Below, in pieces: positions 615 through 19,774 of a DNA stretch of 64,000 bases. The DNA lies in contig NZ_SZPZ01000002.1 of NCBI RefSeq assembly GCF_005233875.1, forward strand, positions 1,364,001 through 1,428,000, written 5' to 3'. Source of the stretch: Kribbella jiaozuonensis (GTDB lineage: Bacteria > Actinomycetota > Actinomycetes > Propionibacteriales > Kribbellaceae). The notes below the pieces were generated by a model. That model was not told the origin of the DNA and searched no databases. It saw only the letters and a program-made list of their open reading frames with translations. The position numbers were made by a program, and so were the translations under genes. Each line of letters begins with the position of its first letter. The stretch's first letter is position 1.

Positions 615-722
615 CCGCACCCCTCCTCCGATCCGGCGCTGTTCAGGTGCTGGGAAATATAGCTGTTCGCTCGAAGTTGCGCCTCCGATTCGTCCACACT
701 GGGTGGCGACCAGGAGGTGATC

Positions 723-3872: not shown

Positions 3873-6038
3873 TCAGCGCACAACCAAGGTTGCCGTCAGC
3901 TGGTGGGTCAGTGTCCCGCTGGTGGCGGTGATCTTGAGGGTGGAGGTCCCGCGGGCTGTCCCGGAGGTGGTCCGGATCTTCAGCACCGCGTTGCCAGAGG
4001 TGGTCACCGGGTTACCCGTCCACGTCGGTGTGGCGTTCGATGGCTGTCCGGACACCTTGAGCGTCACAGATCCCGTGAATCCGCCCGTGGGCGAGACGTT
4101 CACCGTGTACGTCGCAGTCTGCCCACGAGTCACCGTGCTCGAGGCCGGGCTGACTGCGATTCCGAAGTCCGGCCGGTTGACGACCAGCGTCAGGGTGACC
4201 TGATGGCTGAGTGACCCGCTGGAACCCGAGACCGTGAAGGTATAGGTGCCGGCGGGAGCTGATCCTGACGTCACCACATTGACCTGCGCGCTGCCGCTGC
4301 CGTGCAGGACGGCAGGAGTGACGGCGACCGTGCCGACGGCGGACGAAAGACCGCCGGCGGCCAGCGACACATCGCCGGCGAAGCCGTTCGCCGGGCTGAC
4401 CGCGATCGTGTACGCCGTCGACGCGCCTGCCGCAACAGTGCGGGTGAGCGGCGTCGAGGAGAGACCGAAGTCCGGCGGCGGCACGACAGTCAGCGTCGCG
4501 GTCGCGCTATGGCTGATCGCGCCGCTCGAACCTGTCACAACCAGCGCGGTCGAACCCGCGGTCCCGGGAGCGACCACGGTCAGCGTCGACGTCCCCGCAG
4601 CTGCCACCACCTGCGGATCGAAGCTCCCCGGCAGGCCACTGACCGACAGCGCGACGTCGCCGCTGAAGCCGCCACTCGCACTGACCGTCACGTTGTACGT
4701 CGCCGTTCCGCCGGGAAGCACATTGACCGTGGCAGGCGACACGACCACCCCGAAGTCCGGCGTACTACGGAGCCAGTTGTACGACGCCAGCACGTCGAGG
4801 CGACCGTAGCCGTAGTCGTTGTCGGCTCCGGCCGGCCCGAGATCCGCCGCACCGGCCTGCAGCGCGGACTGCTGCCTATCGGCGGACACACCCGGCGACG
4901 CCTGCAGCAGCAACGCGAGCGCACCGGCGACGTGCGGAGCGGCCAGCGACGTGCCCGAGACGTCGAGGTAGCCGCCGTACAGGTCAGTAGTCCGGATGTC
5001 CGTGCCTGGGGCAACCAGTTGCGGGTACGCCGACTGGGTGCAGGCCGACGGGCCGCGGCTGGAGTACGGATCGATCAGGCCGGTGTCGTCAACCGAACCG
5101 ACCGCCAATGCCTCCGGGTTGTTCGCCGGACTGGCCGAGCTACCGGCCACCGGACCGTAGTTGCCAGCAGCAAAGACCGGCAGGATCCCTGCCGCGCGGA
5201 GGTTGCGTAGGTCGGGCTGGAACTCCAGGCTGCAAGTTCCGGCGCTCATCGTCCAGGAGTTGTTCACCACGTTCGGCGCGTCCGCTGTCGCCGGGTTCCC
5301 GTCCGGGTCGAGCAGCCACTGGTACCCGAGATGGATCGCGGTCGACGACGCCTGTCCGCGATCGTTGAACATCTTGACGGCGATCCACCGCGCGTCCGGC
5401 GCGATGCCGATCGACGAGCCGCCGCCGTCACCGCCGACCATCACCCCCATCGTCTGCGTTCCGTGACCGGTCAGATCGACCGGTGCCGACGGGTGCTGAC
5501 CGTTCGGGTCGTACCAACTGTTGGTCCCACCACGCCACCGGGAAGCCAACTCGGGGTGGCTGATATCCACGCCGGTGTCCATCGATGCGACGACCATGCC
5601 CTGGCCGCGATACCCGAGATCCCACATCGCCGGTGCGTTCACCTGGGCCACGTTCGGCTCGACGGCGCTTGCAACCTCTGCAGTCGGAGCCTGGATCGTC
5701 GTACTCGGCCGCACCTCGCGCACCTCGGGCCGCCGCGCCAGTTCCGCGGCGACACTCGAGCGGACCCGGGCACCGATCGCGTTGGTGATCCACAGCGGCA
5801 CCACAGACGTCACGAGGCCCTGCTTCCGCCGTACGGCGAGCAGATCCCGGGCACCGCGCTGTGTGGCATCGGCGTGGTCCCGCAACGCCCTCTCGAGCCG
5901 GCCGGGTGCGGCGGCCGCAGGCGTCACCTGCGACTTCAGCACGACGATGACGTCGACGAAGGGATCGGCCGGTGGCGCGGCGACTGCCGATCCGGGCACC
6001 ACGAGCGCAAGAACCACGCTGAACGCAAAGGACCTCAT
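3873..6038 (-). CDS. Secreted subtilisin-like serine protease with three Ig-like repeats
   Basis: 721 residues from the ATG at 6038, which overlaps the stop of the CopCD gene (ATGA) and follows GGGAGGTCGACG. Signal peptide MRSFAFSVVLALVVPGSAVA, an inhibitor_I9-like propeptide, then the S8 catalytic domain with Asp in SMDTGVD, His in LTGHGTQTMGV, oxyanion Asn in FAAGN and Ser in SGTSLAAPHVAGAL. The C-terminal ~260 residues are three tandem Ig-like domains, each opening with PDFG-(x)3-SP and ending in TLxVV. These resemble bacterial pre-peptidase/adhesion-type beta domains and probably hold substrate or cell wall. Translational coupling to CopCD puts an extracellular protease in a copper operon; maturation of the secreted oxidases nearby is a possible role, by inference. 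Confidence 0.88.
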   Translation of the reverse strand: MRSFAFSVVLALVVPGSAVAAPPADPFVDVIVVLKSQVTPAAAAPGRLERALRDHADATQRGARDLLAVRRKQGLVTSVVPLWITNAIGARVRSSVAAELARRPEVREVRPSTTIQAPTAEVASAVEPNVAQVNAPAMWDLGYRGQGMVVASMDTGVDISHPELASRWRGGTNSWYDPNGQHPSAPVDLTGHGTQTMGVMVGGDGGGSSIGIAPDARWIAVKMFNDRGQASSTAIHLGYQWLLDPDGNPATADAPNVVNNSWTMSAGTCSLEFQPDLRNLRAAGILPVFAAGNYGPVAGSSASPANNPEALAVGSVDDTGLIDPYSSRGPSACTQSAYPQLVAPGTDIRTTDLYGGYLDVSGTSLAAPHVAGALALLLQASPGVSADRQQSALQAGAADLGPAGADNDYGYGRLDVLASYNWLRSTPDFGVVVSPATVNVLPGGTATYNVTVSASGGFSGDVALSVSGLPGSFDPQVVAAAGTSTLTVVAPGTAGSTALVVTGSSGAISHSATATLTVVPPPDFGLSSTPLTRTVAAGASTAYTIAVSPANGFAGDVSLAAGGLSSAVGTVAVTPAVLHGSGSAQVNVVTSGSAPAGTYTFTVSGSSGSLSHQVTLTLVVNRPDFGIAVSPASSTVTRGQTATYTVNVSPTGGFTGSVTLKVSGQPSNATPTWTGNPVTTSGNAVLKIRTTSGTARGTSTLKITATSGTLTHQLTATLVVR

Positions 6039-7630
6039 CGTCGACCTCCCGGACCGCGAATCAACCACCACGCACCCACCCCGACACCCAGCTCCAACAG
6101 CAACAGCGCCGCCCCATCGACGTACGGCGCGAGCCTCAGCCCCGGCGCGAGTGAGACAGCAGGCGATGAGACATTCCAATCAAGCGGTACGGCGTACTCG
6201 CGCCCGCCGCGATGCAGTACGGCGACCATCCGCACCGCGCCCGCCGACGCGGCCCGGTACGTCGCGAAGTACCGGGTGTCGGTCAGACGCTGCAGCGGGA
6301 CGGCCTGATCGCCGATCCGCAGGTCCACGCCGCCGAGTGGCGCCGGCGCCGGTCGCCGGCTGCTGTCGGCGATCACTGTCAACCAGTTCACCCCGGGCTG
6401 GTTGGGTGTCGCCGACACAGTGACCACCAGGTCCGCCACGAACCCGCTGCGTGCCAGGGCGGGAGGGACGTCGGCCCTGGCACCCGCCGGAGGAGACTGT
6501 CCGACAAGCGCAGCAACCGCGACCAGCAACAGTGCACCGACCGTGGCTTCGGCCGCGATGGTGTGACGAGGTACGGACCGCCGGCGCAGCCGCCATGCGT
6601 TGAGCAGGCCCAGGAGGCCGATCACGCCAAGCAAGGCAGTCTTGAGCAGCAGCAGGCGTCCATAAGTGGAGGCAATGAGCCAGCGCGGGGTGGCGACCTG
6701 GAGACCCGCGCTGTAGAGTCCGGACACGAGGACAAGTAGCACGCTGCCGGCAGCCACGACCGAGAACGGCCGTCGCAGACTACGTGCCAGTTCGGTCCGC
6801 GGGCCGTGCCAGAACACCAACAACAGCGCCGGCACCGCACCGAGCCACAGCAGACCGGCGAACGCATGGACCGCATCGGCCAGGAGCGCGGCGAAGTGTC
6901 CCGATGACAGCGCGGCAGCATGACTTCCGGTTGCCTCCAGCCACATCAATCCGCCGATCGGCACCAGCAGTACGACAGACGCCACGCGCTCGGTCAGCAC
7001 AAGCCCCACCAGCGCGCACAAGACCACCAGACACACCAGTCGAAGGCCGGTGCGATGTATGCCGATGGCAACGACCGCGGAGCACGCCGCGGCGATCAGC
7101 AATCGCTGCCGTGCAGCCAAGGCGATCGGGTCGGACGGCACGCGTAGAACGAAGACGACGAGCGCGAGGGGACCGACAATGCCCGCCAGTGCGAGCAACC
7201 AGACCCACCGCACCAGCACGCCACCCGAAGTACTCGGTCGATGGACAGACAAGGCCCCGGAGTGCCCGACCGAGAAGGTGACCGTCCCGCTCGTCGTGTG
7301 GCTGTCCCGAGCGGCGACTGCTTCCCACAACAATCCGTACGTCCCGTCAGCCAGCCGCGGAAGCTGTACTGCGATCACCCGCGGATCGCCCGACCCGGCC
7401 ACCACGCCGGCCCCCAGAACCATGACACCGTGCTCGTCGACCAGTCGCGCCGTACTGCGCGAGGCGGTGATGTCACCGCTGAACCACAGCCGGGCGAGGC
7501 CGGGGGACTCCGCGAGGACTGCGCCGTCGGCCGGGTCCGCCCGGACCAGCTCGGTGTGGGCAACCGCGACCGACGGCAGCGCGCACAGCAGGAGCACGCC
7601 GGCCAGCAGGAGCAGACAGCGGTGCCGCAC
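6035..7630 (-). CDS. CopC-CopD fusion, copper binding/import protein (YcnJ-like)
   Basis: 531 residues from GTG 7630, preceded by GGGAGGGGGAGCCC. The signal peptide ends ...LPSVAVA, so the mature protein would begin with His (HTELVRADPADGAVL). With Asp and His in ARDSHTTSG this gives the His-brace copper site of CopC. The CopC domain is followed by eight or so membrane helices of the CopD family, including GSHAAAL and DAVHAFAGLLWLGAVPAL, and a C-terminal YtkA/FixH-like beta domain (about residues 390-500) before a last helix. This CopC-CopD-extra-domain layout matches YcnJ-type copper uptake proteins. It heads the minus-strand operon with the subtilase, and its upstream region carries the ATGAC-N6-GTCAT dyads described separately. 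Confidence 0.9.
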   Translation of the reverse strand: MRHRCLLLLAGVLLLCALPSVAVAHTELVRADPADGAVLAESPGLARLWFSGDITASRSTARLVDEHGVMVLGAGVVAGSGDPRVIAVQLPRLADGTYGLLWEAVAARDSHTTSGTVTFSVGHSGALSVHRPSTSGGVLVRWVWLLALAGIVGPLALVVFVLRVPSDPIALAARQRLLIAAACSAVVAIGIHRTGLRLVCLVVLCALVGLVLTERVASVVLLVPIGGLMWLEATGSHAAALSSGHFAALLADAVHAFAGLLWLGAVPALLLVFWHGPRTELARSLRRPFSVVAAGSVLLVLVSGLYSAGLQVATPRWLIASTYGRLLLLKTALLGVIGLLGLLNAWRLRRRSVPRHTIAAEATVGALLLVAVAALVGQSPPAGARADVPPALARSGFVADLVVTVSATPNQPGVNWLTVIADSSRRPAPAPLGGVDLRIGDQAVPLQRLTDTRYFATYRAASAGAVRMVAVLHRGGREYAVPLDWNVSSPAVSLAPGLRLAPYVDGAALLLLELGVGVGAWWLIRGPGGRR

Positions 7631-7709
7631 GGGCTCCCCCTCCCGTCGACGCCGGGACACCGCGCCGACAGCTCGACGATAGGAACCGCCGCGGCGTACT
7701 GCTCGCTTC

Positions 7710-7747
7710 ATGACACGACCGTCATCAGATGACCCGACCGTCATCTG
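7710..7747. promoter_or_regulatory. Two tandem dyads ATGAC-N6-GTCAT (putative response-regulator operator)
   Basis: Dyad one is ATGAC-ACGACC-GTCAT at 7710-7725. Dyad two is the longer CAGATGAC-CCGACC-GTCATCTG at 7726-7747, and the two abut directly. Both half-site pairs are 11 bases apart start to start, one helical turn, as expected for an OmpR/PhoB-type regulator. They lie between the divergent CopCD gene (start 7630) and the large secreted protein gene (start 7901). An identical-spacing copy lies upstream of the OmpR-type regulator gene at 19759. Function is inferred from position and recurrence. Confidence 0.72.
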
Positions 7748-7759
7748 TCACACCACGGC

Positions 7760-7799
7760 GGATGACCGCCGGATGACGTGGGGATGACAGAGCCGTCAT
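7760..7799. promoter_or_regulatory. Three 11-bp-phased GGATGAC direct repeats ending in a third ATGAC-N6-GTCAT dyad
   Basis: GGATGAC occurs at 7760, 7771 and 7782, exactly 11 bases apart. The last copy is also the left half of ATGAC-AGAGCC-GTCAT (7784-7799). Head-to-tail half-sites at one-turn spacing are the classical binding pattern of OmpR/PhoB-family regulators. The block is on the side of the plus-strand secreted-protein/oxidase operon, whose ATG is at 7901, so it probably serves that promoter, while 7710-7747 is nearer CopCD. Confidence 0.7.
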
Positions 7800-7900
7800 G
7801 CACCGCGCCGGGACACGTGAGTCGCCGGATGATCACTCACAGATGTCCAGGCACCAGGCGGCGGCCTGTTCAGGTCGTGCCGCCGGGGAGGGTGGGACCG

Positions 7901-10900
7901 ATGTCTGCTGCAACGAGTTCGTTCCGGCTCGTCCGCCGTACCCGAGCGGCGGTGGCCCGGGTCGCCGTACTCGGACTGATCGCGGCGAGCCTGGCCGGGG
8001 TGGCGATGACCAGATCCGCGCCCGAGGCGCAGGCGGCTACAGCCTGTCCGGCGGCAGGCTGCTCGGTCACCGTCGACGCGCGTGACTTCCCGACCGGGAA
8101 CCCGCTGGCCGACTTCACGTACATCGTCAACCAGGACAACACCAAGCTGCCGAACGATCCGAAGGCGCTCAGCACCGAGAGCAACAGCCCGATCGTCCGC
8201 GAAGGCGACCAGACCCGGAAGACCGTGACCCTGCCGGCCGGGCGGTACCTGATCTCGGTCCGCTCGCTCGATCACAAGATGTGGGGCAAGTACATCAACC
8301 TGCCCGCCGACGCCGCCGCGGACGGTTCTCTGACCGCGCGCGTCGACCTGACCGTGCAAAGCGCCGAGCATCCGCTGCCACTCGGGAAGATCCGCGTGTT
8401 CGTGTTCGAGGACAACGCCTGGGCGAACGGTGCGCCCGACACCGAGGAGGCCGGCTTGTCCGGTTTCCAGGTCGGGCTCGAGGAACAGACGCACAGTGCC
8501 GTGACGGTCGACTACAACAACCACCCGCTGTGCGGCGGTCTGTGCCTGACCAATGGAGACGGCTTCAACCAGATCGACAACCTCGGCCCGGCGACGTACC
8601 TCATCGACGTCCACCCGCCGGACCGGCCCTGCAACAGCGACCCCAACAGCCGCTGGTACCAGACGACCACGATCGACGGCGGACTGCAGCTGCTGGCGCC
8701 GACCGAAGAAGGTGCCGACGGCACCGGTGCGCCCGGCGAGCAGTTGTGGGAGCCGCCGACGGCCCGGACCGCGTACTGGTTCGGCTTCGTCTGCGCCCCG
8801 CAGCCGTTCGCGGCCGCCGGCACCGGCGAGGTCACCGGTACGGCGCGCAACTGGCAGGGCTGGCCGCCGTTCGACCAGTTGACACTGGGCGAGCCGGTCG
8901 AGAACCCGTTCGTCGCATTGAGCGACAGCAGCACCGACCGGACCGTGTACATCGGCCAGGGCGATGCCAGCGGCAACTTCGACATCCAGAACGTCCCGGC
9001 GGGCAGCTACAACCTGTCGATCTGGGACGAGCAACTCAGCTACATCATGCGAATCCTGCCGGTTGATGTCGCCGCAGGCGGCACGGTCACGGTCGAGGAC
9101 CCTGATCCGGTCCATCCCGACGAGCATGGTGTGGGGGTGTCGCGCTGGTTCGGCTGGCTGGACGGTCACGTCTACAAGGACCTGAACGGCAACCAGCTCC
9201 GCGATCCCGGTGAGCCCGGTATCGGGAACACCGACATGGACCAGCGCTGGCGCGACGGCTCGATCAAGGAAGCGACCACCACCGACCCGACCGGGTACTA
9301 CCAGTACCCGACCGCCGAGGGCGGCCCGCTCGGTCGCTGGATCGTCAACGAGCAAGGCTTCGCGCGCTTCGGCGTCAGCGGTGCGTCCCAGCACGACGAG
9401 TTCGACCCGGGCGTCGTGACGCCGATCCCGACCGATCAGGGCGGCGCGCTGCTCACCAACCAGTTGCTGACCGAAGGCCACCGGGCCACGGTCGACTGGG
9501 GCAAGACCGACTACCCGGCCGGTACGCCGGGACAGATCGTCGGCATCACGTACTTCTCGACCACCCGCAACGAGTTCGACGCGCGCATGCAGGCGCACGA
9601 GGACTACGAGCCGGCCATCCCGGACGTGACGGTGTACCTGGAGACTCTCGGTCCCGACGGGCAGCCGAACACGGCCGACGACGTGATCGTGAACAAGTAC
9701 GTGACCGATCACTGGGTCCAGCCCAGTGGAACCCCGCCCGCGGACCCGGCGACGTACGCTCCGGGCTGTGCCGTCCGCGACGCGACCGGCGCGGACATCA
9801 GCTCGCAGCTCAACCCGGGCATCGGGCCGAACTGTCTCGAGGTTCCGATCACCGGTCAGCAGACCAAGGACGGCGCCTTCGACGGTGGCTACGCGTTCGC
9901 CGACTACTGCCCGAGCGGGTACGACCTGACGACAGACAACGGCACCTGCAGCGGCAACACGCAGCCGGTCGCACTCACCGCCGGCACCTACATCACCCAC
10001 GTCGTGATGCCGACCGACAGCACCGACAGCCGCCTGTGCAACCCGGCAGATGCTTCCCAGCGGGTCAGCCACCCGAAGGGGACCACGATCCCGGGTGACG
10101 GCACCGGCTGTCTCTACCGCCCGGTCCGCGAGGAGGACGTGAACGTTGACCTAGGCAACAAGTTCACGCCGGCCATCCCGCCGCCGCCGTGCACCGGTGA
10201 CGACCACCTGATCGACAAGTCGTCGCTGACCCCGCGGAGCAACTACTTCAACGTCGCGGGCGCCCACGCGCCGCTGTGCGACAAGCGGCTGGTGGTTCTG
10301 CAGAACAGCCAGAACGCCAACGCGGACTTCAACCTGATGACGAACTTCCGTACCGACCCGAACGGCGAGGACCCGGCCGACACGCGCACCGGTGACGTCG
10401 CCGAGCCAGGCCGCCTCGTCGGCCAGGTGTTCAACGACATCTACTTCGAGCGCGACCCGAACTCGCCCTGGTACGGCGAACCGCGCCCGATCGGCAACGT
10501 TCCGGTCGGCATCTACGCCCGCGTCGACACGGCCGGGCCTGGCGGCAACGTGAACCTGCCGTACGACGCGAACAACTGGCGCCTGCTGACGACCGTGACG
10601 ACCAGCCCGGACGGTTCGTTCGAGGCCCTGGTCCCGTCGACCGAGACGCTGAACTGTCCCATCCCGCAAGGCCCGTGCCCCGGCATGTACCTGGTGAAGG
10701 TCGATGACCCCGGCTCCAAGACGGCGCCGAACCCCACCTACAACCCGAATTTGCTGACAGCAACGACTCCGGCCGAAGCGTGGCCGGGCCTGACCACTCA
10801 GCTCGACCTGCCGCTGGACCCGATCTCGGGGACCGGCTGCGAGGATCCCGCCGTACCGGCGCGGCCCGAACTGCTGCAGGTCGACACCCCGGTCCGGACC

Positions 10901-13075
10901 GCCGGCCAGGTGATGACGATCCAGGCAGACTTCATCGGCGCACAGGGAACCGCCACCGGCGCGGCCGGCGTACGGGCAACCCTGACCGACGACCGCACCG
11001 GAACGAGCGTCACGCTCACCCGGGCCAACGGCGGGATCGTGAGCTGGACGCCCGGCACGTCCGGGACCACCGGCGTACCCGACCGGGTGCAGATCCGGAT
11101 CCCTGCCTTCGGTACGACGTTCCGCCCCGGACCGAAGCAGCTGACGCTGATCACGTCCGACGCCAGTGGGGGAGTGCCGACCGTGAACGGCATCACCGTT
11201 CAGGTCACCGGATCGTCCGGCGGCATCAACTACAACCCGAACGTCGTGAACGTCGCCGCTCCGACGCTGACCGGCCACCAGTTGCAGGCCGCCATCGACG
11301 CCGCTCCGGCACGCAGCCTGCTGGTGCTGAAGCCCGGTACGTACAACGAGAACGTGGTGGTCTGGAAGCCGCTGAAGATCCAGGGTGTCGGCCCGGGCGG
11401 CATCATCGGCGCCCATGAGGCCCAGGCCCGTGACCCGGAGGACCCGCGCTTCCACGTCCTCGGCTCGGTCATCGACGGCCGCTACTTCCAGCAGAACGCA
11501 ACCGCGTACGACGCCACGATCGCCGCTCACGGCCCGTACGTCGACTCCGCACATCCGGTACTGCGTGGCGCCGACGTCACCGTGGTCGCGCAGACGGCGG
11601 CGGCGTATGACCTGACCGGTACGACGACCGCGGTCAACCAGACGCAGTTCAACCGCTCCCGGGTCGACGGTGTCGCACTGATGACCGGCGGCTCCGGTGA
11701 GGGCGCGGGCGGCATCCAGCTCCAGGCCTCGATCAACAACGAGCAACTCACCAACAACGTGCTCGAGAACAACGCCGGCGTCGTCGCCGGCGGGATCGGC
11801 ATCGGTCAGCCCTACGACCACGCCAGCCACAACTACACCGTCAAGGTCGCGAACAACCGGCTGCTCGGCAACGGCGGCCTCACGCAGGCGGGCGGCCTCG
11901 GGATCTTCTACGGCTCGAACGACTACGAGGTCACCGGCAACATCGCCTGCTCGAACTTCAGCGTCAACTACGGCGCCGGCATCTCCCACATCGGGCTCAG
12001 CCCGGGCGGGAACATCCACGACAACCAGATCTACTACAACGACTCGGTCGACTCCGGCGCGGGCGTCGCGATCGAGTCCGAGCTGCCGGTCGGCGGCGGG
12101 ACACTCGGTGACGGCACTGGTGCGGTCTCGCTGGACAAGAACCTGATCCAGAGCAACTACTCCGGTGACGACGGCGGCGGCCTGTTCGTGCTCGACGCGC
12201 TGAACGCGGTGGTGAACATCCGCGACAACCAGATCGTCGACAACGGCTCGGCCGACATCGGCGGCGCGATGATGCTCGACGACTCGTCCAATGTGCGGAT
12301 CGTCAACAACACCGTGGCCAACAACGTGTCCACCGCGTCGTCGGAGAACTCGGCGATCGGCGTACCGCACTCGGCCGGACTCGCTGCCGAGGGCAACGAT
12401 CCGCTGTGGCAGAGCGATCCGCGGTACGTCGCCCAGTACCCGAACGCGGCGACCCGGCCGGACTTCGCCCGTCCGGTGGCGCAGTTCAACGACATCTTCT
12501 GGAACAACACGGCGTTCACGCTGGACAGCTTCGGCCCGGGTGCGGCGCTGGTGAACCAGGGCGTGATCGACTTCGAGGTGCACGGTACGACGAACAACGC
12601 CGACACGTTCATCCCGCGGTACTCCGATCTGAGCAACGGGCAGATCCTCGGTCCGAACGGCGTCCAGCACGCGGTACCGGCGGGCCAGGGCAACATCATC
12701 GGCTCGAATCCCACGTTCGTCACGCCGTTCACGCTGGAGCTGACGGTGTCCGGGTCGCGGCTGGATCCGCAGACCGCGGCCGTGACGATCACCGGCGCCG
12801 ATCCGCCGGTGGGGCTGACCGGGAACTATCACCTGCAGACGACGAGTCCGGTCGTGGACCGTGGGGTCCGCTGTTCGAACACGCCGGCGCCGATCCCGAA
12901 CCTTGCCGCATGCTCCGCGGCCGCGGTCCCGGCCCCGACCGGAAGCCCGGCGGTGAACGGCGGTCTCGGCGATTACGACAGCCAGTTCCGCCCACAGCTG
13001 CGGACGCTCCGGGTCCTCACGCCGTGGGACCTGGGTGCGGACGAGCTGCCCGGCATCCCGGTTCCGTTGCCATGA
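7901..13075 (+). CDS. Very large secreted protein with SdrD/Cna-B-like domains and a parallel beta-helix
   Basis: 1724 residues from ATG 7901 (GGGGAGGG upstream). Starts further upstream would place operator DNA inside the gene. Long signal peptide (hydrophobic VAVLGLIAASLAGVAM, cleavage near AQAATA). The first ~1000 residues are several SdrD-B/Cna-B-like beta domains: GHVYKDLNGNQLRDPGEPGI near residue 420 (calcium-binding-loop style D-x-N-x-N), an IVGITYFSTTRNEFDARM domain near 542 and a GQVFNDIYFERDP domain near 836. An Ig-like domain lies near 1010-1110. From about 1120 to 1550 comes a right-handed parallel beta-helix (QLQAAIDAAPARSLLVLKPG, then Asn-rich PbH1 coils such as NNVLENNAGVVAGGI). 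The stop overlaps an ATG and the multicopper oxidase gene follows at once, so it is the first gene of the oxidase operon. A surface scaffold or glycan-binding role is inference. Confidence 0.85.
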   Translation: MSAATSSFRLVRRTRAAVARVAVLGLIAASLAGVAMTRSAPEAQAATACPAAGCSVTVDARDFPTGNPLADFTYIVNQDNTKLPNDPKALSTESNSPIVREGDQTRKTVTLPAGRYLISVRSLDHKMWGKYINLPADAAADGSLTARVDLTVQSAEHPLPLGKIRVFVFEDNAWANGAPDTEEAGLSGFQVGLEEQTHSAVTVDYNNHPLCGGLCLTNGDGFNQIDNLGPATYLIDVHPPDRPCNSDPNSRWYQTTTIDGGLQLLAPTEEGADGTGAPGEQLWEPPTARTAYWFGFVCAPQPFAAAGTGEVTGTARNWQGWPPFDQLTLGEPVENPFVALSDSSTDRTVYIGQGDASGNFDIQNVPAGSYNLSIWDEQLSYIMRILPVDVAAGGTVTVEDPDPVHPDEHGVGVSRWFGWLDGHVYKDLNGNQLRDPGEPGIGNTDMDQRWRDGSIKEATTTDPTGYYQYPTAEGGPLGRWIVNEQGFARFGVSGASQHDEFDPGVVTPIPTDQGGALLTNQLLTEGHRATVDWGKTDYPAGTPGQIVGITYFSTTRNEFDARMQAHEDYEPAIPDVTVYLETLGPDGQPNTADDVIVNKYVTDHWVQPSGTPPADPATYAPGCAVRDATGADISSQLNPGIGPNCLEVPITGQQTKDGAFDGGYAFADYCPSGYDLTTDNGTCSGNTQPVALTAGTYITHVVMPTDSTDSRLCNPADASQRVSHPKGTTIPGDGTGCLYRPVREEDVNVDLGNKFTPAIPPPPCTGDDHLIDKSSLTPRSNYFNVAGAHAPLCDKRLVVLQNSQNANADFNLMTNFRTDPNGEDPADTRTGDVAEPGRLVGQVFNDIYFERDPNSPWYGEPRPIGNVPVGIYARVDTAGPGGNVNLPYDANNWRLLTTVTTSPDGSFEALVPSTETLNCPIPQGPCPGMYLVKVDDPGSKTAPNPTYNPNLLTATTPAEAWPGLTTQLDLPLDPISGTGCEDPAVPARPELLQVDTPVRTAGQVMTIQADFIGAQGTATGAAGVRATLTDDRTGTSVTLTRANGGIVSWTPGTSGTTGVPDRVQIRIPAFGTTFRPGPKQLTLITSDASGGVPTVNGITVQVTGSSGGINYNPNVVNVAAPTLTGHQLQAAIDAAPARSLLVLKPGTYNENVVVWKPLKIQGVGPGGIIGAHEAQARDPEDPRFHVLGSVIDGRYFQQNATAYDATIAAHGPYVDSAHPVLRGADVTVVAQTAAAYDLTGTTTAVNQTQFNRSRVDGVALMTGGSGEGAGGIQLQASINNEQLTNNVLENNAGVVAGGIGIGQPYDHASHNYTVKVANNRLLGNGGLTQAGGLGIFYGSNDYEVTGNIACSNFSVNYGAGISHIGLSPGGNIHDNQIYYNDSVDSGAGVAIESELPVGGGTLGDGTGAVSLDKNLIQSNYSGDDGGGLFVLDALNAVVNIRDNQIVDNGSADIGGAMMLDDSSNVRIVNNTVANNVSTASSENSAIGVPHSAGLAAEGNDPLWQSDPRYVAQYPNAATRPDFARPVAQFNDIFWNNTAFTLDSFGPGAALVNQGVIDFEVHGTTNNADTFIPRYSDLSNGQILGPNGVQHAVPAGQGNIIGSNPTFVTPFTLELTVSGSRLDPQTAAVTITGADPPVGLTGNYHLQTTSPVVDRGVRCSNTPAPIPNLAACSAAAVPAPTGSPAVNGGLGDYDSQFRPQLRTLRVLTPWDLGADELPGIPVPLP

Positions 13076-13104
13076 ACATCTACCAGTCCAGTCAGGGGGA
13101 CGCG

Positions 13105-14376
13105 ATGAGCTCGCAGCCGACCGGCGTCGGACGCCGGGACTTCCTGAAGGCCACCGGCCTGGGTGCCCTGGGCACCCTCGCCCTCGGCGGTCTCGGCGCG
13201 GGCCTCGTCCGCGGGACCGGCGCCGCCGCGGCGGCCACGACCACGCTCGCCCTGGCCGCGACCGACGGATACATCACCGTGCCGGGGCGGGAGGACGACC
13301 CGTTGTACATCTTCGGGTTCATCCCGGTCAGCACGACCGCGACGGTCGACCAACTGGTCACGCAGTACAAGGGCCATGCCCGGACGAGTGCGCCGACGCT
13401 GGACGTGAAGCAGGGCGACGACGTCCGGATCACGTTGACCAACCTCGGTCTCGTCCAGCGTCCCGACCTGACCGATTCGCACACCGTCCACTGGCACGGT
13501 TTCGACATCCCGTCGCCGCTCAACGACGGCGTACCCGAAGTGTCGGTGGCAGTGCCGATCGGGAAGCAGCTGACGTACTTCTACCGCCCGCACCGTGAGG
13601 GCACGTACATGTACCACTGCCACTTCGAGGACGTGGAGCACGTCCAGATGGGGATGACCGGGATCGTCTTCGTCCGCCCCACCCAGGACGGTACGACGAT
13701 CGCCGGCTTCTCGAGGTTCGCCTACAACGACGGGGACGGCTCGACCGGCTACCACCGGCACTTCGCGATCCTGCTGAACGAGTACTGGCGCGAGTTCCAC
13801 GACGGCGACCGGGACATCCAGGAGTCGATCGCGACCGACTACGACCCGGAGTGGTTCGTGCTGAACGGGCGTTGCTACCCGCAGACGACGCTGCCGAACG
13901 ACGACCCGTCGCTGGCGGCCCCGCTGCGGATCGCCACACCGAACCCGAACTACGACGACGCACCCGACTACAGCCTGCCCAACTCTGCACTCGTCCAGGT
14001 GAACCCCGGCGAACGGGTTCTGCTGCGGCTGGCGAACCTGGGCTACCAGCAGCACGCGATGCAACTGCCCGGGATCCCGATGCATGTGATCGGGCAGGAT
14101 GCGTCGCTGCTGCGCACCACGTCGTACTGGACGAACACGCTGTACATCGGTCCCGGCGAGGCCCGGGACGTGCTGTTCGACGCACCGGCGTACTCGGCAC
14201 TCAAGCCGTCGGGGAGCGACGGCCGGGGCAGCTACAACGTCTACTACTTCAAGAACCGGGACTGGCGGCGGTTGTCCAGCCTCGGCGCACCCGGCCCGAG
14301 CGGAATGATGACCGAGGTACGGGTGTACCAGAACCCGCTGCCCGCGCAGTCCGTCGTGAGCCAGACCTATGTCTGA
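13105..14376 (+). CDS. Tat-exported multicopper oxidase, first part: type 1 copper plus half of trinuclear site
   Basis: 423 residues from ATG 13105 (AGGGGGACGCG before it). Twin-arginine signal GRRDFLKATGLGALGTLALGG. Two cupredoxin domains. Domain 1 carries H126-T-V-H129-W-H131-G, the HxxHxHG motif, and H171-C172-H173 followed by H179 and M182/M184. Together these supply a full type 1 copper site (H126, C172, H179, Met) and four trinuclear-cluster histidines (H129, H131, H171, H173). Domain 2 (about 285-410) lacks copper motifs. The second HPxHxHG/HxH set of a laccase is missing here and appears in the next gene. The motif YHCH-x5-H-x-x-M recalls, from memory, OmpB/MofA-like oxidases. The gene is 29 bases after the beta-helix protein gene. 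Confidence 0.88.
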   Translation: MSSQPTGVGRRDFLKATGLGALGTLALGGLGAGLVRGTGAAAAATTTLALAATDGYITVPGREDDPLYIFGFIPVSTTATVDQLVTQYKGHARTSAPTLDVKQGDDVRITLTNLGLVQRPDLTDSHTVHWHGFDIPSPLNDGVPEVSVAVPIGKQLTYFYRPHREGTYMYHCHFEDVEHVQMGMTGIVFVRPTQDGTTIAGFSRFAYNDGDGSTGYHRHFAILLNEYWREFHDGDRDIQESIATDYDPEWFVLNGRCYPQTTLPNDDPSLAAPLRIATPNPNYDDAPDYSLPNSALVQVNPGERVLLRLANLGYQQHAMQLPGIPMHVIGQDASLLRTTSYWTNTLYIGPGEARDVLFDAPAYSALKPSGSDGRGSYNVYYFKNRDWRRLSSLGAPGPSGMMTEVRVYQNPLPAQSVVSQTYV

Positions 14377-14389
14377 GCAGGAGGCGACG

Positions 14390-16375
14390 ATGACAAGCAA
14401 CAGCTCGCGGATCCGCCGGTCGCTGGCCGGCCTGGTGCTGGCCGCCGGTCTCCTCGTCCCGGTCGCCTCGCCCAGCGCCGACGCGCAGTCCGAGGCCGTC
14501 CCACCGGTAGGCATGATCTGTACGGCGGGCACGTTGGCCGGCTCGATCCGGACGTTCGACCTGGTGGCGTCCGCGGGCACGATCGACACCCCGGACGGCA
14601 ACAGCGTCTTCATGTGGAGCTACTCGCCGGCCGGCGGGCACTTCCAGAGTCCCGGCCCGGTGCTGTGTGCGAACCAGGGCGAGTCCGTGGTCGTGCACCT
14701 GCAGAACAATTTGCCTGAGGCAACATCTATCGTCTTCCCCGGTCAGGACGCGACGGTCGCCGCGACCGGTGGCGCACCCGGCCTGCTGACCACCGAGGCG
14801 GCCGCCGGGGGCAGCGTCACGTACTCGTTCACTGCCGGTCAGCCCGGCACCTACCTGTACGAGAGCGGGACGGACATCGCCAAGCAGATCGAGATGGGCC
14901 TCGCCGGTGCCCTGGTGGTCCGGCCGACGCTCGGCGCGGACTTCGCGTACGCCGACGCAAGTACCCGGTTCGCACCTGCCCGGGAGTACCTGCTGCTGCT
15001 CAGCGACATCGACTCCGACCTCCACCACGCGGTCGAGACCGGTGCGCCGTACGACCTGAACGCGCTGCGGAACCGGTACTTCTCCATCAACGGACGGGAG
15101 TTCCCGGACACGATCCAGGACAACGGCTCGGCCCTGCTGCCGAACCAGCCGTACGGCGCCCTGGTCCGCCTGCAACCGAATTCGCCGACCGACAACAGGC
15201 CGGCGCTGATCCGGATGATCAACGTCGGCGCGGTGAACCACCCGTTCCACCCGCACGGCAACCACACCACGGAGATCGCGCAGGACGGCCGGCTGATCGC
15301 GTCCACCGAGCACTTCGGCGAGACGATCGGCTCCGGGCAGACCGAGGACTTCCTGCTTCGCTGGGACGACACGGACAACTGGAACCCCACCACGAACCCG
15401 CTGCCGGTGGCGCAGCCGAACTACCGCAACCTGTTCTTCAAGGACGGCAACACCTGGTACAGCGGGTCGCCGTACCTCGGTTACAAGGGCACGCTGCCGG
15501 TCGGTACCACCTCGCAGAACGCCTGCGGCGAGTGGTACTTCCCGCTGCACAGCCACGCGTTGAACGAGTTCACCAACTACGACCAAGGCTTCGGCGGCAT
15601 GGGCACTCTGCTCCGCGTCGACCCGGCGGGTGGTTGCTTCGGCTCGGCCACCTCGACCTCGATCCTCGGCGGCACGCTGAAGTCCGGCTCGGTCGCCGCG
15701 CTCGGCCAGGCCGACGGCACCTACTACCAGGTCAACCCGAAGACCACCACGCGCCCGACCGCGACCACCGCCGCACAGACGTCCATCACAGTCGCCTCGG
15801 CCGCCGGATTCCCCATCACCGGTTCGTACTTCGTTCGCATCGACAACGAGGTCCTGCAGGTGACCGGCGGCCAGGGCACCACCACCTGGACGGTCTCCCG
15901 CGGCCAGCTCGGGACAGCGGCCGCCAGCCACGTCAGTGGTTCGGTGGTCACGGGACTGGCGACGGACTGGTACGGCTCGTTCGGCGGCGTTCCGGCCGGC
16001 AGCTCGAACCTCAAGGTCGTCTACCAGGGCCGCAACTGCACCGGCACGACCGGGACCGCCTGTGCGGCACTGACCACGAACCTGCCACAGCAGACCGTCA
16101 AGATCTGCAACTGGACGGTGCCCGCCGGCTGCAGTACGGCGACATCCGCCGGCTGGACCACCTTGCCGGCCCCACCGGCCCAGCCGCAGAGCGTCGGCTC
16201 CACCGACATCAGCTCGACCTGGACATTGCCCGGTCCGTCGAGCGCGTACGTCGGCACCGGCTCGTACGCCGGACAGGTCCGGGTACTCGTCCACACCCAA
16301 CGGTGGACAGCCTCCGCGCCGGTGGCGTTCTCGACCTGGGGCGACCTGATGAAGATCGTGTACGACGCGCCATGA
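14390..16375 (+). CDS. Secreted multicopper oxidase, second part: remaining trinuclear motifs, no type 1 copper
   Basis: 661 residues from ATG 14390, six bases after AGGAGG. Sec-type signal (SLAGLVLAAGLLVPVASPSADA). A cupredoxin domain without ligands (about 85-180) is followed by one with H284-P-F-H287-P-H289-G-N-H292 and L386-H387-S388-H389. The first is the HPxHxHG motif and the second corresponds to HCHxxxH with Cys replaced by Ser, so no type 1 copper can form. H287, H289, H387 and H389 would complete an eight-histidine trinuclear cluster with the preceding protein. The last ~250 residues add a beta region; YFVRIDNEVLQVTGGQGTT there resembles short repeats found in phage tail and surface proteins. 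The gene starts 13 bases after the previous stop. Confidence 0.85.
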   Translation: MTSNSSRIRRSLAGLVLAAGLLVPVASPSADAQSEAVPPVGMICTAGTLAGSIRTFDLVASAGTIDTPDGNSVFMWSYSPAGGHFQSPGPVLCANQGESVVVHLQNNLPEATSIVFPGQDATVAATGGAPGLLTTEAAAGGSVTYSFTAGQPGTYLYESGTDIAKQIEMGLAGALVVRPTLGADFAYADASTRFAPAREYLLLLSDIDSDLHHAVETGAPYDLNALRNRYFSINGREFPDTIQDNGSALLPNQPYGALVRLQPNSPTDNRPALIRMINVGAVNHPFHPHGNHTTEIAQDGRLIASTEHFGETIGSGQTEDFLLRWDDTDNWNPTTNPLPVAQPNYRNLFFKDGNTWYSGSPYLGYKGTLPVGTTSQNACGEWYFPLHSHALNEFTNYDQGFGGMGTLLRVDPAGGCFGSATSTSILGGTLKSGSVAALGQADGTYYQVNPKTTTRPTATTAAQTSITVASAAGFPITGSYFVRIDNEVLQVTGGQGTTTWTVSRGQLGTAAASHVSGSVVTGLATDWYGSFGGVPAGSSNLKVVYQGRNCTGTTGTACAALTTNLPQQTVKICNWTVPAGCSTATSAGWTTLPAPPAQPQSVGSTDISSTWTLPGPSSAYVGTGSYAGQVRVLVHTQRWTASAPVAFSTWGDLMKIVYDAP

Positions 16376-16407
16376 CCGAGTCGATCGAGTCGCAGAGGAG
16401 ACCTGTG

Positions 16408-17370
16408 ATGCGTACATCCGTTCACCGCGGGACGCGGGTCCTGCTGGTGCTCGCGCTGGCCGTGTTCGGCCTGACCTGTGTGGTCAGCTCCGCCACCGCG
16501 GCCACGGTATCGATCGAGCTGTGCGCCGTACCGGGGACCGCACCGCTGCCGGGCGGCGGCCTGGTGCCGATCTGGGGGTTCGGCAAGCCGACGACGCCCG
16601 GCGATTGCGCCACGGCGAGCGCGGGTCTGCCGGGTCCGCAGCTCGAGGCGGTGCAGGGGGACCTGGTCACGATCACCGTACGGAACGCCTTGCCTGCCGG
16701 GCATGTGGTGTCGTTCGAGATTCCCGGAGTGGCGTTCGACCCCGGGCCGACCGACGCCGCACCGGGTGCGGCCGTGTCCCGGTCGTTCACGGCACAGGCC
16801 GGCACCTACCTGTACCAGAGTGGCGGCGACGCCGGGCGCCAGGAGGCGATGGGACTGTCCGGAGCCTTGCTGGTGCGCTCACTCCCCCCGAACCAGGCCT
16901 ACGCGTCCGCGACCACGGCGTACGACATCGAATCGGTGCTGGTGCTGACAGCGGTGGACCCGGCGTTCAACGCCGCGCCGGAGACGTACGACGTGCACAG
17001 CTACAAGGCGACGTACTGGCTGATCAACGGGAAGTCGTACCCGGACGTGCCGGCGATTACTACGGCCGCAGGGCAGCGGGTGCTGCTGCGGTACCTCAAT
17101 GCCGGCTACGACAACACCTCGCTGACGTTGCTCGGCACGCACCAGCAGGTCGTCGCTCGTGATGCCCGGCTGCTGACCAATCCGTTCAGCGCGAGCACGG
17201 AGACGATTCCGGCCGGCGGCACCGAGGACACGATCGTCGTCGTACCCGCGGGCGCACCGCCGAGCACGCACGGCTTCCCGCTGTTCAACCGTCAGCTCCA
17301 CCTGACCAGTGGGCCGCAGACCGGCACGTCGCCGATCGGCAACGGCATGCTGGTCTTCATCCAGCCATGA
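16408..17370 (+). CDS. Secreted two-domain cupredoxin-fold protein without copper ligands
   Basis: 320 residues from ATG 16408, seven bases after GAGGAG. An in-frame ATG at 16372 overlapping the previous stop is less likely. Signal peptide RVLLVLALAVFGLTCVVSSATA. Two cupredoxin-like domains align by eye with the ligand-free domain of the preceding oxidase: GPQLEAVQGDLVTITVRNAL mirrors GPVLCANQGESVVVHLQNNL, and AGTYLYQSGGDAGRQEAMGL mirrors PGTYLYESGTDIAKQIEMGL. No HxH or Cys-His pairs are present. It looks like the third piece of a six-cupredoxin-domain assembly, giving structure rather than chemistry. The stop overlaps the next gene's ATG. Confidence 0.78.
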   Translation: MRTSVHRGTRVLLVLALAVFGLTCVVSSATAATVSIELCAVPGTAPLPGGGLVPIWGFGKPTTPGDCATASAGLPGPQLEAVQGDLVTITVRNALPAGHVVSFEIPGVAFDPGPTDAAPGAAVSRSFTAQAGTYLYQSGGDAGRQEAMGLSGALLVRSLPPNQAYASATTAYDIESVLVLTAVDPAFNAAPETYDVHSYKATYWLINGKSYPDVPAITTAAGQRVLLRYLNAGYDNTSLTLLGTHQQVVARDARLLTNPFSASTETIPAGGTEDTIVVVPAGAPPSTHGFPLFNRQLHLTSGPQTGTSPIGNGMLVFIQP

Positions 17371-17837
17371 AGCTCAGGATTCTGGGCATCCTCACCGGGA
17401 TTGCTCTGGTCGCCGCCGCATTGACGGCCTGGGTTCTGATTCGTCAGGACCCGACCGCGGCGGCGCCGGCGCCGGTCGCGCAGATCGCCTGGGGGCGTAC
17501 GACGGTCGACGCCGACGGCCTCGCGGCGCGCAGCGGCGTACGCCTCACCCAGGTCGCAGTCACCGGGGGAGGAGGCCTGCTCGACCTGCGGTTCCAGGTG
17601 CTCGATCCCAACCGCGCGAACAGCCTGCACGACGCCTCGACGCCGCCGGCCGTGATCGACGAGACCAGTGGACTCGTCGTCCGCGACCTGCTGATGAGCC
17701 ACGCGCACACCGGCAAGTTCACCACCGGCGAGACGTACTACCTGGTCTTCGAGAATCCCGGCAACTGGATCCGGCGCGGGTCGAACGTGACCGTGCTTCT
17801 GGGACAGGCACAGGTCGAGCACGTCGTCGTTCGCTGA
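17367..17837 (+). CDS. Small membrane-anchored protein at the end of the oxidase operon
   Basis: 156 residues, ATGA overlap with the cupredoxin gene. An N-terminal helix (ILGILTGIALVAAALTAWVLI) looks like an uncleaved anchor or signal. The rest is an all-beta extracytoplasmic domain with a conserved-looking core LLDLRFQVLDPNRA, a LLMSHAHTGK segment whose two histidines could bind metal, and TGETYYLVFENPGNWIRRGS. No family is recognised. Tight coupling to the oxidase genes suggests an accessory role, such as holding the complex at the membrane or delivering copper. It converges with the sensor kinase gene, with three bases between the stops. Confidence 0.7.
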   Translation: MKLRILGILTGIALVAAALTAWVLIRQDPTAAAPAPVAQIAWGRTTVDADGLAARSGVRLTQVAVTGGGGLLDLRFQVLDPNRANSLHDASTPPAVIDETSGLVVRDLLMSHAHTGKFTTGETYYLVFENPGNWIRRGSNVTVLLGQAQVEHVVVR

Positions 17838-17840
17838 CGA

Positions 17841-18935
17841 TCAGCCGCTCCGCGGAATCGTCAGCACGAACCGAGCGCCGCCCTCGTCGCTGTGGGCCGC
17901 GACCAGCGTGCCGCCATGCGCCTCGGCAACGGCACGCGCCATCGACAGCCCGAGACCGCTGCCCATCGGTCCGTGCTCCGGCCGCCGGTGCCAGAACCGG
18001 TCGAACACGAACGGCAGGTCGTCGGGCTCGATCCCCGGCCCCGAGTCGTCGACGATGATCGCGATCCGGCCGGGCGACGCCGTACAGCCGATCCTTATCG
18101 TGTCGCCAGACGAGGTGAAGTGCACCGCGTTCTCGACCAGGGCGTCGAGCGCGAGCTCCATCCAGTCGTGGTCGATCCGCGCGCGGCCGGCCGGCCCGCA
18201 ACCGATAAGCCAGACCCGATCGGTGTTCGCGGTCCAGTTGCGGCCGATCTCGGCGACCAGCGCGGCAACGTCGGTCGGCCGCCGGTCCAGCGCCTCACCC
18301 GCATCCAGCCGGGCCAGCGCGAGCAACCGGTCGGACAACGCGGACATCCGATCGAGCTGCCGCAACGCAACCTCGACGTGCGGGTGTACGGCGTGCAGCG
18401 CCGTCGCGTCACCTGCCAACTCGAGATGGCCACGCGCGATCGTGATCGGTGTGCGGATCGCGTGTGAGGTGTCCCGGAAGAACCCGCGCTCCCGCTCCAG
18501 GCTGGCGCGGCGCTCATCGGCCATCCGTTCGACCTGCTGCTGCGCGGCGGCCCGGCGGCGGGCGTGCCACATCATCGCGACGAACAGCGCGGGCATCAAC
18601 GGCACCTCGGCGAGCTCCGCGTTGTCGATGACGCCGTCGACGACGCGGCCGAGCAGGACCGCACCGGTCGCACCGGTTACGGCCAGGGCCACGAGCAGGG
18701 TCGGCAGCAGCGGCCAGACCCGGAAGCCGTAGACGATCGTGAGGCTCAGGAACAGGAAGTGGTACGGAATCGTCTCCTCGCCCGGCAACCGGATCATCAG
18801 CCCGAGCATCGCCAGCATGAATGCGGCGAGCAGGCTGTCGATGACCAGGCCCCGGTTCAGGCCCAGGCGGCGGACAGCCGGCTCGGTCCGGACGCCGGTC
18901 GCGCTCTCACGCGGTTTGTAGCTGATAACCGACAT
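17841..18935 (-). CDS. Membrane sensor histidine kinase of the copper/oxidase island
   Basis: 364 residues. Three to four membrane helices occupy residues 28-125 with almost no extracytoplasmic sensor loop. A short coiled linker follows, then HisKA with phospho-acceptor H158 in FRDTSHAIRTPI, and a HATPase_c domain with N box LVENAVHF, G1 DDSGPGIEPDDL and G2 GSGLGLSMARAV. The start at 18935 overlaps the response-regulator gene by 29 bases, so the pair is co-transcribed. The near absence of a sensor loop suggests signal detection in or at the membrane. A link to copper or oxidase function is inferred from position and from the operator shared by the regulator gene and the island. Confidence 0.87.
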   Translation of the reverse strand: MSVISYKPRESATGVRTEPAVRRLGLNRGLVIDSLLAAFMLAMLGLMIRLPGEETIPYHFLFLSLTIVYGFRVWPLLPTLLVALAVTGATGAVLLGRVVDGVIDNAELAEVPLMPALFVAMMWHARRRAAAQQQVERMADERRASLERERGFFRDTSHAIRTPITIARGHLELAGDATALHAVHPHVEVALRQLDRMSALSDRLLALARLDAGEALDRRPTDVAALVAEIGRNWTANTDRVWLIGCGPAGRARIDHDWMELALDALVENAVHFTSSGDTIRIGCTASPGRIAIIVDDSGPGIEPDDLPFVFDRFWHRRPEHGPMGSGLGLSMARAVAEAHGGTLVAAHSDEGGARFVLTIPRSG

Positions 18936-19581
18936 TGCGCACCGTCCGGATGACGTCGTTGCGGAGCTTGGACCGGAGTCGGCCGATACACACGTCGACG
19001 AGGTTGGTGCTCGGATCGAAGTCGTAACCCCACACCTCGGACAGCAGCTCCTGCCGGGAACAGACGGTGTCCGGATTGCGCATCAGGTGCTGCAGCAACA
19101 GGAACTCGCGCTGCGGCAGCTCCGCGGTCCGTTCACCCACCTGGAGCCGGCGCGTCCGGGTGTCGAGGACGATCTCGCCGACCCGCAGTACCTCGGGCAG
19201 CCAGGCTGCGCCCGCCGGCGCGGGCGCCAGCAGCCGCGAACGCACCCGGGCCAGCAGCTCCCGGACCACGAACGGTTTCGCCAGGAAGTCGACCGCGCCC
19301 TGCTCCAGGCAGGCGACCCGCACCTGCCGGTCCTCGGTCGCGGACAGCACCAGGATCCGGGTCGACCGGTCGTGCGTCAGCAGTGCGGTCAGCACCGCCT
19401 GGCCGTCCAGACCGGGCATCAACAGGTCCAGGATCACCAGATCGGGCTTGGTGGTCAGGGCGAGCCGGAGTCCCTCGGTCCCGTCCGTGGCCGTGATCAC
19501 GTGGAAGCCTTCCGCCTCCAGCGCGCTGCGGACGAAGCCGAGCAGGTCGGGTTCGTCGTCGACAACGAGAATCCTGGTCAT
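18907..19581 (-). CDS. OmpR-family response regulator
   Basis: 224 residues from ATG 19581, with AAGGGGG upstream. The receiver domain opens ILVVDDEPDLLG, with phosphorylated D52 in VILDLLMPG, the Thr/Ser switch in LVLSAT and Lys in FLAKPF. The C-terminal winged helix has the OmpR signature LPQREFLLLQHLMRNPDTVCSRQELL and ends DVCIGRLRSKL...VRNVGYQL. It forms an operon with the kinase. Its upstream region carries an ATGAC-N6-GTCAT dyad identical in layout to those between CopCD and the oxidase operon, so I infer autoregulation and control of the whole island. Confidence 0.9.
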   Translation of the reverse strand: MTRILVVDDEPDLLGFVRSALEAEGFHVITATDGTEGLRLALTTKPDLVILDLLMPGLDGQAVLTALLTHDRSTRILVLSATEDRQVRVACLEQGAVDFLAKPFVVRELLARVRSRLLAPAPAGAAWLPEVLRVGEIVLDTRTRRLQVGERTAELPQREFLLLQHLMRNPDTVCSRQELLSEVWGYDFDPSTNLVDVCIGRLRSKLRNDVIRTVRNVGYQLQTA

Positions 19582-19758
19582 CGAACCCCCTTCAGGCCTT
19601 GACGGCCTACCCCCGGGGCACGGGTGTCCGGCTGCTGCACCCCACAGCCTCCGGACCGGGACCCCACCGGCGCGCACCCCAACGACATTGTCGGACGACC
19701 GGGTGTCCGGCGGAAGAGGTGAGCGCTCTCCGCCGAACCGTCCCAGAGCGCTGATCAG

Positions 19759-19774
19759 ATGACAGTCCTGTCAT
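19759..19774. promoter_or_regulatory. ATGAC-N6-GTCAT dyad upstream of the response-regulator gene
   Basis: ATGAC-AGTCCT-GTCAT lies 178 bases upstream of the regulator ATG and 45 bases past the ackA stop. The left flank CAG matches the longer dyad at 7726 (CAGATGAC). Ten fixed bases in a fixed frame would be expected about 0.06 times by chance in 64 kb; four copies are seen, all next to genes of this island. Confidence 0.65.

Follow-up and report, generated by a model that had tools for sequence, protein, structure and literature searches.

In a 64-kb stretch of the 8.66 Mb genome of Kribbella jiaozuonensis (contig NZ_SZPZ01000002.1, forward strand positions 1,364,001 to 1,428,000; referred to as the window, in whose numbering coordinates are given), an island of nine genes between positions 3873 and 19774 includes three neighbouring genes, MCO1, MCO2 and MCO3, coding for paralogous two-domain cupredoxin proteins. 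Listed as three cupredoxin proteins in an earlier note on this DNA, they are, by the way the copper ligands are split among them, not separate oxidases but pieces of one. The catalytic unit is probably a hetero-oligomer of all three, with one active site common to two polypeptides.

Indeed, the first domain (D1) of MCO1 carries a full type 1 (T1) copper set (H137, C183, H190 and M193 or M195) together with four histidines of the trinuclear cluster (H140, H142, H182 and H184), and the other four trinuclear histidines (H294, H296, H394 and H396) are found in the second domain (D2) of MCO2, which has no cysteine. The second motif pair is absent from MCO1-D2, where QHAMQLPG is read, the first pair is absent from MCO2-D1, and MCO3 has lost both pairs and has no copper ligand at all. 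MCO1 and MCO2 each keep exactly the half that the other lost; one complete site formed by MCO1-D1 and MCO2-D2 is the simplest mechanism, and a single active site is predicted from the sequences for the MCO1-3 set. Scanning genomes with an alignment of nine MCO1 sequences gave 408 relatives, and locus counts were taken from the best 80 of these 408 (about 52 Actinomycetota by record title, 26 Chloroflexota and 2 metagenome bins without assigned phylum). Over 81 MCO1, 78 MCO2 and 74 MCO3 sequences, counted also by regular expression, all eight histidines of the trinuclear cluster were essentially invariant, as were the T1 Cys, His and Met, and the MCO2 positions equivalent to T1 were found to vary (Y/H/F and S/N).

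In a sequence profile search of the PDB, MCO1 matched best to 3g5w, the blue copper oxidase of Nitrosomonas europaea, and 2zwn, a metagenome laccase, both type-C two-domain oxidases. The likeness to these enzymes covers the two domains per chain, the T1 site in domain 1, the motif order (HxH/HCH, then HxHG/HxH), the motif spacing and the fold; in alignments, HTIHWHG and HCHVNVNEH..GM of 2zwn domain 1 match MCO1, and HSHGHD and HDH of its domain 2 match MCO2. MCO1 shows the type-C arrangement, with two cupredoxin domains and T1 in the N-terminal one (HTVHWHG, HCH..H..M), and the T1 signature of type B (SLAC), a Cys in the domain-2 HxH motif, was seen in none of MCO1, MCO2 and MCO3. However, none of the three supplies both trinuclear halves from one gene, as type-C enzymes do; the latter have three equal sites per homotrimer, whereas here the halves lie in different genes, one site is predicted and the third subunit is dead.

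The core of the gene set is constant in relatives. Presence was scored by BLAST at 1e-5, in loci whose contig reaches far enough, so that the counts are lower bounds; where testable, SCAF (coding for a giant secreted protein, the scaffold) was found in 72/72 loci, MCO2 in 75/75, MCO3 in 70/70 and ACC (for a membrane-anchored protein) in 60/60. The same-strand order SCAF-MCO1-MCO2-MCO3 was kept in all 66 evaluable loci, with ACC next in line wherever the contig reaches it. Conservation of the gene set had been named as a check on the island, and the set is not scattered. No MCO1-MCO2-MCO3 fusion was seen, the three genes being separate at all evaluable loci. Less constant partners were the CopC-CopD fusion gene (CopCD, 41/57), the subtilase gene SUB (33/57), the response regulator gene RR (31/48) and the histidine kinase gene HK (26/48); copper supply and protease, which had been counted as parts of the system, are thus widespread without being constant. 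CopCD and the subtilase gene lie downstream of ACC on the same strand in many relatives, and in Kribbella they are divergent.

A plasmid/chromid search extended the system to Burkholderiales, where Cupriavidus metallidurans CH34 and Paraburkholderia chromids carry MCO1, MCO2, then MCO3 and the scaffold. In Paraburkholderia, MCO3 and SCAF form one annotated frame (L148 11745-19017), which comes immediately behind MCO1 and MCO2 and codes for a giant polypeptide containing cadherin/Ig domains, and the genes of the system are annotated as 'hypothetical protein'. This fusion is a natural link between the proposed oxidase ring and the scaffold. The suggestion of one extracellular copper-enzyme machine with a scaffold is supported by the constant core genes, by the MCO3::SCAF fusion and by an operator kept across genera (see below).

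Two-domain multicopper oxidases are trimers in which the trinuclear cluster sits where domain 1 of a subunit meets domain 2 of the following one (PMC13151041). The enzyme proposed here would work like a homotrimeric type-C oxidase whose three identical subunits had become different and lost two of their three active sites. The remaining trinuclear cluster would form at the interface between MCO1-D1 and MCO2-D2; with MCO2-D2 contacting MCO1-D1, the subunits must therefore close in a ring running 1-3-2. Substrate electrons would enter at the T1 copper of MCO1, and O2 would be reduced to water at the common cluster. MCO3 would complete the ring and bind SCAF, to which it is fused in Burkholderiales, and SCAF would display the enzyme outside the cell. 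The anchored ACC and CopC-CopD would load or handle copper, the subtilase would process exported parts and, in many Actinomycetota, the adjacent OmpR-type regulator would control the system through the palindrome ATGAC-N6-GTCAT. For the substrate, the weakest step of the proposal, we lean towards Mn(II), Fe(II) as the metal ion oxidised, or an extracellular phenolic, rather than copper detoxification.

Copper detoxification would be the task if the island were a copper-resistance system, made of a CueO/CopA-like cuprous oxidase, CopC-CopD and a Cop-type two-component system, which we consider unlikely. As in copper-resistance operons (CopC-CopD, CopA/CueO), CopC-CopD is encoded beside the oxidase genes and an oxidase subunit bears a twin-arginine signal; moreover, MCO1-3 gave partial matches to the copper_res_A and CueO models, and the response regulator resembles the copR subfamily among others. 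These oxidase matches are however far below the curated NCBIfam cut-offs (35-62 bits, at best 62.4 vs 478.95 bits for copper_res_A, TIGR01480, and 39.3 vs 525 for CueO). In addition, the giant scaffold is constant and MCO3 inactive, CopC-CopD was not found in 16/57 relatives, the regulator is not constant and the kinase is without an outside metal-binding domain. CueO and CopA are three-domain proteins, whereas the oxidase is built otherwise here. We know of no counterpart to SCAF and ACC in copper-resistance operons.

Ceruloplasmin and other six-domain blue oxidases are thought to derive from a triplicated two-domain oxidase (scheme in PMC3600357). MCO1-3 might be no more than a bacterial six-domain oxidase (MnxG/McoA/ceruloplasmin-like) that has been cut into three genes, with ring and site position unchanged. 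As with ceruloplasmin and MnxG of Bacillus (9bxa), there are six cupredoxin domains altogether, and one trinuclear centre would be present. In the Chloroflexota locus L132, MCO1, MCO2 and MCO3 lie in one frame with TAG codons between them, and the six-domain chain was modelled with AlphaFold2 (AF2) from properly aligned rows only (single-subunit rows had misaligned MCO1 and MCO3 onto MCO2), giving 1160 residues with disordered linkers, a predicted local distance difference test score (pLDDT) of 76.9 and a predicted template modelling score (pTM) of 0.81. By Foldseek E-value, ceruloplasmin, factor V/VIII and MnxG (9bxa) came on top. The linear superposition of the model on ceruloplasmin or MnxG, on the contrary, fails (template modelling score about 0.2, root-mean-square deviation 33 A), and MCO1 profiles match two-domain enzymes first. 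Ceruloplasmin and MnxG are single chains with other T1 and cluster positions, the bacterial six-domain proteins analysed having their T1 site in domain 2 and a cluster shared by domains 2 and 3 (PMC3600357), whereas here the ligands come from separate genes, with T1 in the first domain (MCO1-D1) and the partner histidines in the fourth (MCO2-D2). A ring 1-3-2 is also different from a chain fused 1-2-3 and from the D1/D6 or D2/D3 geometry of the ceruloplasmin and MnxG type (PMC3600357). A split six-domain oxidase is thus rather improbable.

The MnxEFG manganese oxidase complex shares with MCO1-3 the character of a multi-subunit, operon-encoded multicopper oxidase (PMC5622069). MnxE and MnxF, however, are proteins of ~12 kDa without similarity to characterised proteins, whereas the partners here are paralogous cupredoxins giving active-site ligands, with a scaffold and an Ig-like anchored protein in addition. 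As to a relation of ACC to MnxE/MnxF, ACC had no PDB sequence match, and its fold search gave generic Ig-like matches only, the best (Z 6.2) being to unrelated domains.

A reading of MCO1 and MCO2 as two separate enzymes or copper-binding proteins, each in homotrimers of its own and joined in the operon only by a common pathway, is very improbable: each has the two-domain fold, and two-domain oxidases are normally homotrimers (PMC13151041), but neither has the full trinuclear set, the half missing is exactly what the partner keeps, and the two are never apart where testable.

The structural comparison is compatible with the hetero-oligomeric ring. In VIA-align, the MCO3 part of the model was superposed on 3g5w (Z 30.6, 1.7 A, 262 residues) and on 2zwn (Z 30.5, 1.8 A). 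Almost the whole of a three-domain laccase (2xu9/6w2k) could be fitted on MCO2 and MCO3 together (model range 435..1160, 386 residues, 2.9 A), in rows that are dominated by the MCO3 part and report only the ends of the aligned range. With laccase D1-D2 corresponding to MCO2 and laccase D3 to MCO3-D2, MCO3-D2 would stand beside MCO2-D1, as the ring 1-3-2 demands, a result compatible with that order and not a proof of it.

Several points weigh against the hetero-oligomer. The invariance of the MCO1 motif HCH..EHV.MGM is partly built into the scan patterns, from which MCO1 HWHG and the MCO2 motifs are free. A twin-arginine (Tat) motif is found on MCO1 in 80/81, and MCO2 and MCO3 have mostly Sec signals; since the signal types differ, assembly would have to follow export. 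The L132 chain was folded with TAG read as Gly and with only 29 alignment rows, and the model is compatible with the ring order 1-3-2 by its fold fit, not by inter-residue distances. Neither CopC-CopD nor the subtilase nor the two-component system is constant among relatives. Finally, the stoichiometry, which may be 1:1:1 for MCO1:MCO2:MCO3, and the copper content are predictions from sequence.

On balance, we favour placing the system of Actinomycetota, Chloroflexota and Burkholderiales in an undescribed oxidase class, in which a multicopper oxidase would be an obligate heterotrimer, its single trinuclear centre would lie between two different polypeptides, its permuted ring would be foreign to single-chain six-domain oxidases, and a giant surface protein dedicated to it would carry the whole. 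A literature search for a split, heterotrimeric or heterodimeric multicopper oxidase gave fungal laccase papers only, and no paper describing the cluster was found; subscription papers were mostly outside the search, so that this is weak evidence of novelty. If this is true, the system would bridge, as a living intermediate, the homotrimeric two-domain oxidases and the single-chain six-domain blue oxidases: three diverged two-domain genes with one surviving site are an intermediate of the sort that the triplication scheme would predict. Present in many environmental bacteria and annotated as hypothetical in Paraburkholderia, it may have gone unnoticed as a machine that oxidises metals or phenols outside the cell; surveys for one-gene laccases or for MnxG would miss or mis-score the split oxidase.

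In a tree of 42 sequences, MCO1, MCO2 and MCO3 were each set apart from the rest by a branch of 100% bootstrap; under midpoint rooting MCO2 and MCO3 were closest. The three paralogue subtrees were largely parallel, and in each of them the Chloroflexota copy L073 was nested among actinomycete copies. We infer that the triplication came before the spread and that from then on the three genes have moved as a set, in part by horizontal transfer. L073 is a metagenome bin copy (JAKOUW010000149.1), for which either horizontal transfer or misbinning may account.

The closest named MCO1 relatives were those of Kribbella pratensis (94% identity) and Kribbella sp. VKM Ac-2568 (85%). The distribution of the cluster is patchy, with 8/394 genomes of the class in an MCO2 search and 3/296 of the phylum at a strict MCO1 threshold. 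Within the genus Kribbella, the close form was found in three genomes and a 53-54% form in six. Both forms occur in Kribbella pratensis, where two complete copies of the system, the close one and a diverged one (45-54%), lie at two places on one contig.

All the genes that had been named in the island, i.e. CopC-CopD, subtilase, scaffold, three cupredoxin proteins, anchored protein and two-component system, are present (Table 1), with overlapping junctions by which they are grouped as overlapping transcription units. Overlaps of 4 bp (ATGA) join SCAF-MCO1, MCO2-MCO3, MCO3-ACC and CopCD-SUB, and the MCO1-MCO2 overlap is 8 bp. The subtilase and CopC-CopD genes are on the minus strand, the block from SCAF through MCO1, MCO2 and MCO3 to ACC runs divergently on the plus strand, and the RR/HK pair is convergent with it.

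Table 1. Features of the oxidase island, in window coordinates.
Feature	Position	Strand	Support
SUB, secreted subtilase	3873..6038	-	PF00082 154 bits; 33/57 evaluable relatives
COPCD, CopC-CopD fusion; alternative start GTG at 7630	6035..7711	-	PF04234 63.8 bits, PF05425 46.1 bits, both above cut-off; 41/57 relatives
Divergent control region, palindromes ATGAC-N6-GTCAT at 7710, 7729 and 7784	7710..7799		Motif search
SCAF, giant secreted protein, SdrD-B and fn3-like repeats, weak beta-helix match	7829 (or 7901)..13075	+	1748 or 1724 aa; 72/72 relatives
MCO1, two-domain cupredoxin subunit, twin-arginine signal, T1 site and four trinuclear His in domain 1	13072..14376	+	
MCO1 HTVHWHG motif, residues 137-143: T1 His and two trinuclear His	13480..13500	+	81/81
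MCO1 HCHFEDVEHVQMGM motif, residues 182-195: two trinuclear His and T1 Cys, His, Met	13615..13656	+	80-81/81, partly by search construction
MCO2, two-domain cupredoxin subunit, four trinuclear His in domain 2, no T1; extra C-terminal domain in this clade	14369..16375	+	
MCO2 HPFHPHG motif, ligands H294, H296	15239..15259	+	77/77
MCO2 HSH motif, ligands H394, H396; Ser or Asn in place of Cys	15548..15556	+	75/75
MCO3, two-domain cupredoxin subunit without copper ligands, putative structural subunit	16372..17370	+	
ACC, membrane-anchored Ig-like sandwich, no known family	17367..17837	+	60/60 relatives; AF2 pLDDT 91.8
HK, sensor histidine kinase with membrane segments, no sizeable outside domain	17841..18935	-	
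RR, OmpR-type response regulator, putatively binding the palindrome	18907..19581	-	
ATGAC-N6-GTCAT palindrome upstream of RR	19759..19774		Motif search

The operator sequences that the island was said to share were recovered. The palindrome ATGAC-N6-GTCAT (ATGACNNNNNNGTCAT) has 4 matches in the 64 kb of the window vs 0.04 expected from shuffles, and all 4 sit in the two control regions of the island, three in 7710-7799 and one at 19759-19774. Over the whole genome 9 sites were counted vs 2 for the reversed control; a wider regulon was not seen, two of the five genomic sites outside the window lying beside a GH2 gene and three apparently inside coding frames. The same open-frame layout with the same perfect palindrome beside the GH2 gene is present on two contigs of the assembly (G000 C1:2388767-2391782 and C5:186226-189241), which may be due to assembly redundancy (contamination estimate 6.61) or to a true duplication.

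Across 81 loci, the window included, 33/37 operator matches fell at the start windows of SCAF, RR or CopCD, although these windows account for just 3.5% of the sequence (binomial p 4e-44, relatedness among loci being ignored). Operator matches of this kind occur in 23 loci, among them loci of Kribbella, Cellulomonas, Actinoplanes, Sphaerisporangium, Nonomuraea, Micromonospora and Amycolatopsis. None of the Chloroflexota loci of the set had the exact motif. The neighbouring OmpR-type regulator would be the protein binding the palindrome. As for the sensor attributed to the island, a two-component system is encoded in it, but copper sensing by it is hypothetical: HK has hydrophobic segments without a sizeable sensor domain on the outside, and in Chloroflexota at least one copy adjoins a kinase of another type (GAF/HisKA_3).

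The description of SCAF as 'beta-helix/SdrD-like' holds for its SdrD part, with a match above cut-off (PF17210, 36.7 bits), but the beta-helix match is weak (22.4 bits, under the cut-off of 25.9). Its identity with the copper-insertion protein NosD was rejected, TIGR04247 reaching 29.6 bits vs a cut-off of 300 and covering only profile positions 1-80 of 377. The N-terminal SdrD repeats of SCAF are kept among relatives and the C-terminal part is variable; in the Chloroflexota copy L105 (2325-9938) the latter consists of DUF11 repeats, with no beta-helix-like region.

In ACC, H114 is conserved in 48/53 sequences and M110, H112 and H152 are common; that ACC handles copper is our guess. MCO3 is long in most relatives, with Ig-like tails, and the Kribbella-type MCO2 has an extra C-terminal stretch of ~230 residues (window 15660-16375) that is not in most relatives. 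A display domain may have swapped subunits between MCO2 and MCO3.

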